From Acidobacteriota bacterium (GTDB lineage Bacteria > Acidobacteriota > Terriglobia > Terriglobales > Acidobacteriaceae): DNA of 62,817 nt. Below, piece after piece: positions 1,373 to 5,440 of the stretch. Positions within the stretch are counted from its first letter, which is position 1; every line of letters starts with the position of its first letter. The notes beneath the pieces are model-generated. The model saw only the letters and a list, made by a program, of their open reading frames with translations. It did not search any database and was not told the origin of the DNA. The DNA lies in the NCBI GenBank assembly GCA_003224755.1, contig QHZR01000079.1:1-62817 (forward strand), written 5' to 3'. The position numbers and the translations under genes are program-made.

Positions 1373-1537
1373 TCAGGCAACAGTGCGTGCCTGTGGCGCT
1401 TGCTGGTTAAGCCGCTCTTGTTTCTCGCGCAGTAATTGGTCTATTTCCCGAATCAACGCCATCAGTCGCTGCGGGTCTTGTTCGACCGCAGCCTGCTCAC
1501 AAAGAACCTGCCATCGTTCCCTAGTTTGATCTTTCAT
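1373..1537 (-). CDS. Microprotein, 54 aa, second gene of a small two-gene operon
   Basis: A 54-residue frame on the minus strand runs from ATG (1537) to TGA (1373-1375): it starts MKDQTRERWQVLCEQAAVEQ and ends QAPQARTVA. It is rich in Gln, Glu and Arg and is predicted to be a helical, coiled-coil-like protein with a single Cys. GGGAG lies about eight bases before the ATG as a ribosome-binding site, and the start is only three bases after the stop of the gene at 1541-1714, which suggests translational coupling. I recall similar short proteins with EQAAVEQDP and RLMxLxxEI patterns from Acidobacteriota genomes, function unknown. The composition and ribosome-binding site support a real gene. Confidence 0.65.
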   Translation of the reverse strand: MKDQTRERWQVLCEQAAVEQDPQRLMALIREIDQLLREKQERLNQQAPQARTVA

Positions 1538-1540
1538 CTG

Positions 1541-1714
1541 TCAGCTCCCGCTTGCCACGCTGGCAAACTTTTTCTTTCCGGGTGCAGCCACTCCGTTTTT
1601 CGCTGGTCGCTGATTCGGAGTTTCATCAAGGTGCAAAACCTTCTTTACCGCCCGCACTGGAACCTGTTCGAAATATGTTTTTGGCTTGCGAAGTGTGATT
1701 GGCTTCTTCAACAC
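1541..1714 (-). CDS. Small basic protein, about 57 aa, first gene of a small two-gene operon
   Basis: This minus-strand frame reads LKKPITLRKPKTYFEQVPV followed by RAVKKVLHLDE and a Lys/Ala-rich tail, ending at TGA 1541-1543. Possible starts are GTG at 1714 or TTG at 1711; a TGA lies in frame further upstream, so it cannot extend far. No strong Shine-Dalgarno is visible. The FEQVPxxxVKK pattern resembles short proteins of unknown function found ahead of genes like the downstream one. It is strongly basic; nucleic-acid or regulator binding is only a guess. An inverted repeat at 1774-1795 lies in its upstream region. Confidence 0.5.
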   Translation of the reverse strand: MLKKPITLRKPKTYFEQVPVRAVKKVLHLDETPNQRPAKNGVAAPGKKKFASVASGS

Positions 1715-1773
1715 ACTTTGACAGTAGCAAACAAGAACTGATACGGGTCACATCTTTACGGAATCTTTTAATA

Positions 1774-1795
1774 GCCCTAAAGGCCGGTTTAGGGC
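1774..1795. repeat. Perfect inverted repeat in the divergent intergenic region
   Basis: GCCCTAAA (1774-1781) and TTTAGGGC (1788-1795) form an 8-bp stem around GGCCGG. It sits about 60 bases upstream of the minus-strand microprotein pair and about 90 bases before the promoter of the gene at 1953. It has no T-run on either side, so an operator or leader hairpin is more likely than a terminator. Confidence 0.6.
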
Positions 1796-1880: not shown

Positions 1881-1922
1881 TTGACAGATACGTTAGTATT
1901 ACGTTAGGATAACGTTAGTTAT
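1881..1922 (+). promoter_or_regulatory. Promoter with three 11-bp-phased ACGTTAG repeats
   Basis: TTGACA (1881-1886) and TAGGAT (1905-1910), 18 bases apart, form a good sigma-70-type promoter for the small gene at 1953. ACGTTAG occurs at 1890-1896, 1901-1907 and 1912-1918, exactly 11 bases apart, so the copies lie on one face of the helix and cover the spacer, the -10 and the likely start of transcription. This is the arrangement expected of a repressor or activator site; the factor is unknown. Confidence 0.6.
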
Positions 1923-1952: not shown

Positions 1953-2231
1953 ATGAGCCCGCGTTTCGATAAAACTCCAATGAACTTCAAGACCATGGCG
2001 CAACTGGATGTGCCGCAGGGCCGCAACGGCAAACACAAGACGATTGTCACTAAAATTCTTTCCGACCTCGGTCAGGTTGACCAAGGGGTCGCGCTGAAGG
2101 TACCGTTGGCAGGTTTGGACGGAGGCAAGGAAAAAGTGCGCTCGGCGTTGAACCGCGCCACTCACAAGGCCGGACGCAAGGTCGCAACGGCCACCGACGC
2201 CAACTTCCTTTACATCTGGAATGAAGGCTGA
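1953..2231 (+). CDS. Conserved-looking small hypothetical protein, 92 aa
   Basis: Function not recognised. The protein starts MSPRFDKTPMNFKTMAQLDV, has a basic middle (GRNGKHKTIVTKILSDL, RATHKAGRKVATATDAN) and ends FLYIWNEG. It has no membrane segment or signal peptide, so it should be cytosolic. GGAGGT a few bases before the ATG fixes the start, and a good promoter with phased repeats stands upstream (1881-1922), so it is probably expressed and regulated as a single gene. The basic Lys/Arg/Thr composition would suit binding to nucleic acid, but that is inference only. rsmB begins 107 bases downstream. Confidence 0.75.
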   Translation: MSPRFDKTPMNFKTMAQLDVPQGRNGKHKTIVTKILSDLGQVDQGVALKVPLAGLDGGKEKVRSALNRATHKAGRKVATATDANFLYIWNEG

Positions 2232-2338: not shown

Positions 2339-3757
2339 ATGCCGGTTTCCCCTGCGCGCGCGGCGGCGTTTGAAATCCTGCTGCGGGTCGAGACGACCGA
2401 TTCCTACGCTTCGGAGCTGCTCCACTCCAGCCGCTTCGCGAAGCTTTCTGGTGCAGACCACGGCTTGCTGACCGAGTTTGTCATGGGTGTGCTGCGCTGG
2501 CGCGGCGTACTGGATGACAAAATCGCAGAGCACACAAGTCAACCGCTAATCAAACTGGATCGCGAAGTGCTAATCGCACTGCGCCTGGGTGCGTATCAAC
2601 TCCTGTTCCTTGATCGTGTTCCGAAGCACGCCGCCATCAACGAGAGTGTGGAACTGGTCAAGCGGGCGCGCAAGAAGTCAGCAGCTGGAATGGTGAATGC
2701 GGTGTTACGGAAGATTTCTAATTCCCATTTCTCCCAAAAGAGGCAAGAAGTTGGGCCCTCATTCGATGATCGTTCCGCACATCCTGCATGGCTAGTTGAG
2801 CGATGGCAGCGAATCTATGGCCCAGAGGCCGCAAACAAGATCTGCGAGTACGACCAATCGATGCCGCAGACTGCGGTTCGCATGACCACTACTCTTTCAA
2901 TTAGTGATGCGAGTCGAGCTTCGCTTGATGGACAGCCGAGGGCGGCTGTCCCCACATTGGAATGCATCTCCTCACCGCCGGCACCGCCTTTCCACACGGC
3001 ATTCGAGCAGGTTCGGGCTCAAGGAATTCAGTTCAAAGGAGGAAGACTACTGGGCCAAGCCGCCGTTCTCAAAGCTGGCGACATCTCTCAAACTGCATTT
3101 CGCGAACGCCGGTTGGTAATTCAGGACGAAGCCTCGCAACTGGTCGCGCTGCTAGTTGGGCGGGGGAACTCCATTCTCGATTGCTGCGCTGCGCCGGGCG
3201 GCAAGACACGCATTATGGCAGAAAAGAATCCCAACGCAACGGTCGTAGCGATGGATCTGCACCCGCACCGCGCGAACCTGCTCCGCAGACTTGCGCCTGA
3301 GTCAAATATTCAAGTGATCGCAGCCGACGCCCGCCACATGCCATTCGCCACAACCTTCGATCGCATTCTGGTGGATGCTCCGTGCTCGGGAACCGGGACG
3401 CTGGCCCGAAATCCCGAGATCAAATGGCGGCTTACACCGGAGGACATCTTGCGCTTGCAGGCATATCAAATCGAAATTCTGACCGCGGCGATGAAGCACG
3501 TGGCGAAACGCGGCCGCATTATTTATTCGACCTGCTCGCTGGAACCTGAGGAAAACGAAGCGGTCATCGAAAAGGCGATGGCTTCCGAGAGGTCATTTAA
3601 AGTGGTTGATTGCGGGGGCGAACTGCGGCGGCTCGCTACACAGGGTGAGCTTGTCTGGGAAGGCATCGAATCGCTCTTGAGTGGGCCGCATCTGCGGACG
3701 ATTCCTGGCGTGCATCCTTGCGATGGGTTCTTCGCGGCTGTCCTTGAGCAAGGATGA
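2339..3757 (+). CDS. rsmB: 16S rRNA (cytosine-5)-methyltransferase RsmB
   Basis: Methylates C5 of cytosine 967 (E. coli numbering) in 16S rRNA using S-adenosylmethionine. An N-terminal NusB-like domain (residues 1-140, with RVPKHAAINESVELVK) precedes a Rossmann methyltransferase domain: SAM motif ILDCCAAPGGKT near 279, VDAPCSGTGTLARNPEIKW near 344, and YSTCSLEPEEN near 397. The Cys residues of the last two are the release and nucleophile cysteines of this family. At 472 residues it is longer than usual (about 430), partly because of an inserted palindromic repeat (2914-2955) that adds a GQPRAAVPT stretch near residues 192-206, between the two domains. The frame remains open throughout. Confidence 0.95.
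   Translation: MPVSPARAAAFEILLRVETTDSYASELLHSSRFAKLSGADHGLLTEFVMGVLRWRGVLDDKIAEHTSQPLIKLDREVLIALRLGAYQLLFLDRVPKHAAINESVELVKRARKKSAAGMVNAVLRKISNSHFSQKRQEVGPSFDDRSAHPAWLVERWQRIYGPEAANKICEYDQSMPQTAVRMTTTLSISDASRASLDGQPRAAVPTLECISSPPAPPFHTAFEQVRAQGIQFKGGRLLGQAAVLKAGDISQTAFRERRLVIQDEASQLVALLVGRGNSILDCCAAPGGKTRIMAEKNPNATVVAMDLHPHRANLLRRLAPESNIQVIAADARHMPFATTFDRILVDAPCSGTGTLARNPEIKWRLTPEDILRLQAYQIEILTAAMKHVAKRGRIIYSTCSLEPEENEAVIEKAMASERSFKVVDCGGELRRLATQGELVWEGIESLLSGPHLRTIPGVHPCDGFFAAVLEQG
2914..2955 (+). repeat. Double-hairpin palindromic repeat inside rsmB
   Basis: TCGAGC-TTC-GCTTGA (2914-2928, one G-T pair) is followed by GGACAGCCG (2930-2938), AGGG, and CGGCTGTCC (2943-2951), then CCAC. The second module is identical to the two copies at 42482-42611. 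It is read in frame as part of the rsmB protein. Confidence 0.85.
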
Positions 3758-4865: not shown

Positions 4866-5440
4866 TTGAGATTTCTTGCGGGACTAATTGTCGGAGTCTT
4901 GCTGGTAATAGGAGCTGCCTTTGGATATTTCCTTTCGGGCAGAGCGCCGGTTGCAACTACTGACAAGACGCTGCCGTTTGAAAAAATGCTTGCCAACGGA
5001 GCGCTGCATGCGCGAATCAAAAAAGAGATGCCGAAGTCGGTGCCGGTTACTGCCGATGAGGCGACGTTTCTCGCCGGCGCCCACGTTTATCAGCACCATT
5101 GCGGGTTGTGCCACGGATTCCCCAACATGGATCAGGGCCCAATCAGAAAGGGAATGTTTCCAAGCCACCGCACCTCTTTCGCGGCAAAGGAGTCACAGAT
5201 GATGAGCCGGGCGAGCTTATTGGAAGGTGGCGAATGGAATCCGGCTTACCGGAATGCCGTCATTCAATGGTAGTCTGAGCGAGACCGAGATGTGGCAGGT
5301 CAGCGTGCTACTGGCGAATTGCCAACAAGATTTCCGATGCCGTGAAACAAGAATTGAAGCCGCCGAATTTTGGTGGACCGCTGCCGCCGGGTACGCCGGT
5401 CCGTCAGGGTACGGCCCCACCTGCAGGGAAGACCCATTAG
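4866..5440 (+). pseudogene. Membrane-anchored c-type cytochrome, broken by three frameshifts
   Basis: The first part, from a TTG at 4866 (MRFLAGLIVGVLLV..), has one membrane helix and the heme site CGLCH with the context HVYQHHCGLCHG. Homology to itself continues through three frames: KPPHLFRGKGVTDDEPGEL after a one-base loss near 5160, WKVANGIRLTGMPSF and ETEMWQVSVLLAN after another loss near 5215, and ANKISDAVKQELKPPNF to a TAG at 5438 after one extra T near 5325. The joined product is a typical single-heme cytochrome c of about 190 residues with the axial Met in GMPSF. All three changes alter homopolymer lengths, so sequencing error and true decay are both possible. Confidence 0.75.

Follow-up and report, generated by a model that had tools for sequence, protein, structure and literature searches.

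Small proteins acting on two-component systems have been described in bacteria, among them MgrB, SafA and PmrD. In plants, microProteins such as LITTLE ZIPPER are short single-domain proteins that are related to a segment of multi-domain regulators. The two short acidobacterial genes described here, A and B, share with MgrB, SafA and PmrD the size class and the proposed target pathway, whereas the libraries searched gave no sequence relation to those proteins. Few bacteria are as common in soil as the Acidobacteria, in one family of which B is present as a multi-copy component.

The stretch of DNA under analysis, referred to as the window, is an acidobacterial contig of 62,817 nucleotides. A first-pass annotation of its sequence had drawn attention to two short minus-strand frames of 57 and 54 residues, three bases apart, with a GGGAG site before the second, and to a facing promoter with phased repeats across an intergenic region that contains a perfect inverted repeat. 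Each of these features could be located. ORF A (1541..1714, minus strand, 57 aa, GTG start) is the first gene of the A-B unit and is separated by three bases (1538-1540) from ORF B (1373..1537, minus strand, 54 aa, ATG start). The ribosome-binding-like GGGAG (1545..1549, minus strand) lies seven bases 5' of the ATG of B. Gene C (1953..2231, plus strand, 92 aa), which encodes a small alpha-beta, putatively DNA-binding protein, is the divergent partner of A. The flanking genes, both recognised by Pfam, are fmt (273-1220) and rsmB (2339-3757), and no receiver gene adjoins the cassette in the window.

Two short genes under purifying selection

The two frames had been proposed as genuine microprotein genes, with loss of the frames outside this genome or stop codons in close relatives named as counter-evidence. 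Neither is seen, as the frames are conserved beyond this genome and are open there. The proposed comparison of synonymous and non-synonymous change likewise came out in favour of the genes, with an excess of synonymous change in the proposed frames only. For a 14-codon core of A (15 sequences, including the receiver tail of locus L179), mean pS is 0.80 and mean pN 0.36, giving a pN/pS of 0.45, and pN is lower than pS in 103 of 105 pairs. For a 34-codon core of B, taken from those 55 of 75 profile hits that scored at least 45 bits and had an anchorable core, the corresponding values are 0.82, 0.35 and 0.43, and pN is lower than pS in all 1485 pairs. Shifting the core DNA by one or two bases changes pN/pS to 0.84 and 1.99 for A and to 1.07 and 1.48 for B. 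Because the signal is gone in the shifted frames, the A and B frames are genuine genes, that is, real protein-coding genes under purifying selection.

A, B and C are represented by neither a Pfam nor an NCBIfam model, and searches of Pfam, NCBIfam, PADLOC and PHROGs, libraries that new families would not match, gave nothing convincing for any of them. The A and B proteins have no match of their own to the Pfam receiver domain (PF00072), and no membrane helix was noticed in them by eye. A literature search returned nothing on these proteins, which does not exclude work in print. Genes of 50-60 residues are easily overlooked; here two of them could be established by comparison alone, within a conserved three-gene locus.

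A divergent cassette and its control regions

Conservation of A is concentrated in an N-terminal motif, K[T]xFEQ[IV]PxxxVKKI, and is poor past the first 25 residues. When 120 genomes were searched with a profile of A, 9 of them gave matches at E<=0.01, at 11 places in all. A separate B on the same strand lies directly downstream of A at 6 of these 11 loci, and at a seventh (L115, in G034) both are contained in one open frame, so that the order of the pair, the conservation of which had been suggested as a check, is kept as neighbours or as a fusion at 7 of 11. At the remaining loci, A is joined in one frame to another segment that resembles a hairpin (G033), is followed by a Crp-like regulator (G058) or a receiver-like gene (G004:C5), both named by eye, or shows neither (G493). 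The G003 locus holds an additional A-B pair, the A of which is too diverged for the search threshold.

Of the 11 A loci, 9 have C in divergent orientation to A. No C was seen at G004:C5, and the contig of G493 stops before the position could be judged. A search with C yielded 25 matches in 18 of 100 genomes, and 15 upstream regions of C were examined closely; the other ten matches, which are distant, incomplete or truncated where a contig ends (G035) and whose neighbours differ, were excluded. An A or A-like short frame is found in 12 of the 15 regions, and in the other three (G022, G453 and G030) a receiver gene replaces A. The suggestion of a small regulated module facing a phased-repeat promoter is thereby supported, and C, of which the first-pass annotation had noted only the promoter, is a conserved part of it. 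Comparison among relatives shows A, B and C, at the level of sequence, to form a conserved compact cassette. Given that only three bases separate A from B and that one conserved element precedes A, we infer that A and B are co-transcribed.

C is broken in G021:C158, where a stop follows 55 aligned residues, and contains a stop in G030:C75; at both loci, the A-B pair or receiver gene beside C remains open. Crp-like regulators, again assigned by eye, point away from the distant C paralogues L168 (G465:C579) and L172 (G004:C16) and lie directly downstream of A or A-B at L174 and L115.

The promoter-like element upstream of A (1721..1757, minus strand) reads AAAGA-N5-CCCGTA-N15-TACTGT in the window and is conserved as AAAGA-N5-CCCGTA-N15-TA[CG] across loci, its AAAGA part being variable in G033, G449 and G018. 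It fronts A, or the receiver gene replacing A, at all 15 C loci examined. The alignment of the 15 loci has no inner gaps and keeps CCCG, the last A of CCCGTA and TA invariant, so that their spacing is fixed. In eight genomes of the genus there are five exact copies of AAAGANNTNACCCGTA, each of them upstream of A, versus two occurrences of its reversed control. Among the matches listed, a profile of the element, run with stricter filters and with at most 107 candidates scored in each genome, identified at least 13 places in 61 genomes at E<0.001, and the 13 listed all front A or its receiver substitute beside C and had all served to build the profile. Below them follow G004:C6 (0.003), G004:C5 (0.007, before an A-like frame) and G018:C9 (0.04). 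A role as a general promoter was rejected since the profile recovered, among the matches listed, only its own 13 source sequences; within that same set the element appears to be locus-specific and nearly unique per genome. With the inferred -10 box ending at 1721 and the GTG of A at 1714, the message from which A is translated may be leaderless. The perfect inverted repeat, GCCCTAAA-N6-TTTAGGGC (1774..1795, without strand), showed on reading no apparent conservation in the homologous upstream regions of relatives.

On the other side of the intergenic region, a putative sigma-70-like promoter of C (1881..1910, plus strand) was recognised by eye, with TTGACA at 1881-1886 and TTAGGAT at about 1904-1910. 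Three direct repeats of ACGTTAG (1890..1918, plus strand), which start at 1890, 1901 and 1912 with an 11-bp period, run across it as a putative operator. Over the 15 upstream regions of C, self-identity at lags 11 and 22 amounts to 0.352 and 0.320, and none of 2000 mononucleotide shuffles attained the former value at any of the lags 4 to 22. Lags 5 and 16 are also raised in these regions, as if there were a half-period of about 5.5 bp. In eight genomes, exact ACGWTAG-N4-ACGWTAG occurs only twice, both times in the C promoter of the window, which looks like self-control rather than a regulon. A C regulon is not claimed, as the double repeat with one mismatch is rarer than its reversed control.

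The model of C (pLDDT 74) has the order H-E-H-E-E, and its structural neighbours, none of them decisive, include the winged helices of Stn1 (Z 7.7) and CtsR (7.1) as well as R3H domains (6.5) and Alba (near 5). The comparison with DNA-bound CtsR gave a Z of 7.1 and an rmsd of 3.1 across 66 residues. The likeness of C to CtsR and to autoregulated divergent small-regulator cassettes lies in this element order and alignment of the model and in the phased repeats over its promoter; it differs in that identity to CtsR is 11%, that binding by C is putative and that R3H and Alba score nearly as high. Among sequences of solved structures, the C profile found only a 20-residue stretch of beta-propeller chains. 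C may be a small DNA-binding regulator of its own locus.

The B family and the shifting place of the cassette

The B family has the consensus ExWxxLCEQAAxEQDPxxLxxLxxEINRLLxEKxxRL and is modelled as a helical hairpin with helices at residues 8-18 and 22-51 (block-mean pLDDT 95-98 for residues 11-40). The genome of the window contains 9 further B matches at E<=10, all but one of which also fall below 1e-3 (8 matches), and matches at E<=1 were found in 23 of 61 relatives, the own genome counted. The B profile yielded 75 domain hits in 60 fetched loci and the window. Of 300 genomes of the GTDB family searched with a 37-row alignment, 68 contain B, distributed over 25 of 79 genera and with 1 to 19 copies per genome, and B is frequently present without A. 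In an even sample of the phylum, 7 of 396 genomes match B at E<=0.001. Four of the seven, outside the GTDB family, are weak (E 1.7e-4 to 9.8e-4) and were taken as chance; the convincing matches in this sample are confined to the GTDB family. The named relatives in the genome collection are MAGs of Acidobacteriota, Terriglobia and Terriglobales, to which one short match in a 'bacterium' record is added.

In G002:C137 (L088), two divergent B genes (4970-5128 on the plus strand and 5207-5368 on the minus strand) lie less than 100 bp apart and 1 kb from an A-B-C cassette, so that some 3.4 kb hold four copies of B. Another small family of hairpin-like appearance, with the approximate pattern W..xYxAxLxExDxxxLxxRxxxAExAI, is perhaps distantly related to B. 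It is fused to A in G033 (L173, the A frame of G033:C81), is divergent from distant C paralogues (upstream of L164, L165 and L167) and in the window's own genome lies beside a receiver gene (L081:393-743).

When fmt, rsmB and C were searched by tblastn across 24 C loci, fmt and rsmB were found beside C only in the window, the sole exception being a weak fmt-like match in L176. The two flanking genes are nearly adjacent in the genus members G001 and G006, in which C was not found, and are separated by one other gene in G003 and G004, where the C loci are at other places. The G001 genome, 85% complete, has a B where a contig begins, and the gene next to it is the one that also adjoins the G004 cassette; A and C are therefore perhaps absent from the assembly only. 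G002 carries two cassettes. Taken together, the positions compared in relatives show that the cassette occupies different chromosomal places and thus appears to relocate. A functional link to fmt or rsmB was ruled out because relatives carry the cassette elsewhere. Viral and plasmid origins were likewise rejected, as the B and C profiles gave nothing confirmed in viral contigs and the C profile nothing in plasmids, and so was a defence system, since PADLOC gave no match to any of the three proteins. One B-receiver fusion (L245) does match PADLOC, largely over its receiver part. The first-pass annotation had rightly suggested a small module as possible; the paralogous family of B, the relocation and the occurrence of both segments in receiver proteins were not visible to it.

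Receiver proteins and the proposed role of A and B

B is also found fused to a receiver domain in seven proteins, six of which are confirmed by Pfam PF00072 (E 2e-17 to 7e-22); in the seventh (L105) the receiver was judged by eye. The six come from 18 further B loci, 14 of them picked for long frames, and do not give a rate. The partner is a receiver in all fusions that pass Pfam, and some of the other long-frame loci have no known partner. In L254 and L078, B is joined to degenerate-looking receiver-like sequence, without a Pfam match in L254, and in L243 and L252 it lies behind receiver-like sequence, with a Pfam E of 0.007 and no match, respectively. In the latter two proteins (L243:992-1606 and L252:843-1316) B is at the C-terminus, not the N-terminus. 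Comparison of the proteins shows B as the stand-alone form of a segment that is fused to receiver domains as well. As for A, a receiver protein of G030 starts with an A-like tail, MESRTYFEQVEV, and a receiver or Crp-type regulator lies downstream of A where B is absent; the receiver in G004:C5 resembles, by eye, those of the B fusions. Among genes near B copies, 9 of 136 match Response_reg versus 3 of 136 in a random, farther set, a small excess that is suggestive only and includes the receiver of L105, and most B copies have no receiver gene alongside.

The B-receiver fusions, the A-like receiver tail and the receiver neighbours lead us to read A and B as detached segments that act on receivers. 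In the proposed mechanism, A and B would be co-transcribed as one arm of the cassette, with C as the divergent other arm. C, as a small DNA-binding protein, would bind the phased repeats and so control both promoters of the divergent pair. A and B, being free-standing counterparts of segments found within one chain in relatives, would bind, or compete at, the receivers of response regulators or their kinases and thereby tune a two-component pathway. That the A-B pair tunes bacterial signalling is probable. The reading as a whole, in which the cassette regulates itself and its microproteins act on signalling through response regulators, we consider about as likely to be right as wrong. The fuller picture is put forward tentatively, as rather doubtful in its entirety: a relocating Terriglobia cassette in which C, as a small DNA-binding protein, runs its own pair of promoters and releases two microproteins that are detached pieces of receiver proteins, with B (up to 19 copies per genome) expanded as a lineage-specific layer of response-regulator control.

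The fusions would say little about the A-B pair if B were merely a generic dimerisation or coiled-coil hairpin, attached to many proteins and serving unrelated processes in its stand-alone copies. The simple hairpin of the B model, the majority of copies without a neighbouring receiver and the choice of loci by long frames, some without a known partner, are consistent with this; however, every Pfam-passing fusion is to a receiver, in three more long frames (L254, L252 and L243) the partner of B is receiver-like and a receiver elsewhere begins with an A-like tail, and we regard a generic hairpin as unlikely. Relocation and the high copy number of B also recall a selfish toxin-antitoxin cassette, in which small co-transcribed proteins and an autoregulator are kept by addiction and spread by relocation, a picture to which the small size, the 3-base spacing, the autoregulation-like repeats and the two copies in G002 would conform. 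Such a cassette is distinctly improbable, given the single A-B chain in G034, the fusions of B to receivers, the many B copies without A, the lack of PADLOC, PHROGs or Pfam matches and the empty searches of plasmids and viral contigs.

Two further explanations turn on the products themselves. A could be a leader peptide whose translation, rather than its product, controls the downstream gene, and indeed the gene that comes first behind the element is invariably A, with a varying gene downstream of it (B, a receiver or a Crp-type regulator). Its conserved part is the N-terminus and not the end, though, and A-like sequence stands in frame with B and with a receiver, which makes this a slim prospect. 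Slimmer still, and barely credible, is the view that A and B are functionless, decayed remnants of a former receiver gene: both segments do occur in receiver proteins, but the purifying selection seen in pN/pS contradicts decay, and the conserved element upstream of A and the open frames of the multi-copy B speak against it.

If the link of A and B to receivers is right, detached pieces of response regulators would serve as separate control proteins, and the fused forms would provide ready-made controls. From PF00072 response regulators, A and B of the window differ in being much shorter and devoid of a receiver domain; the likeness lies in the seven proteins in which B is fused to a receiver and in the one led by an A-like tail. 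With regard to plant microProteins such as LITTLE ZIPPER, any interaction of A or B with a larger relative, or with a DNA-binding or dimerisation partner, is putative, whereas the likeness is that B, the profile of which matches the seven B-receiver proteins, consists of one segment and is homologous to a portion of a regulator with several domains.
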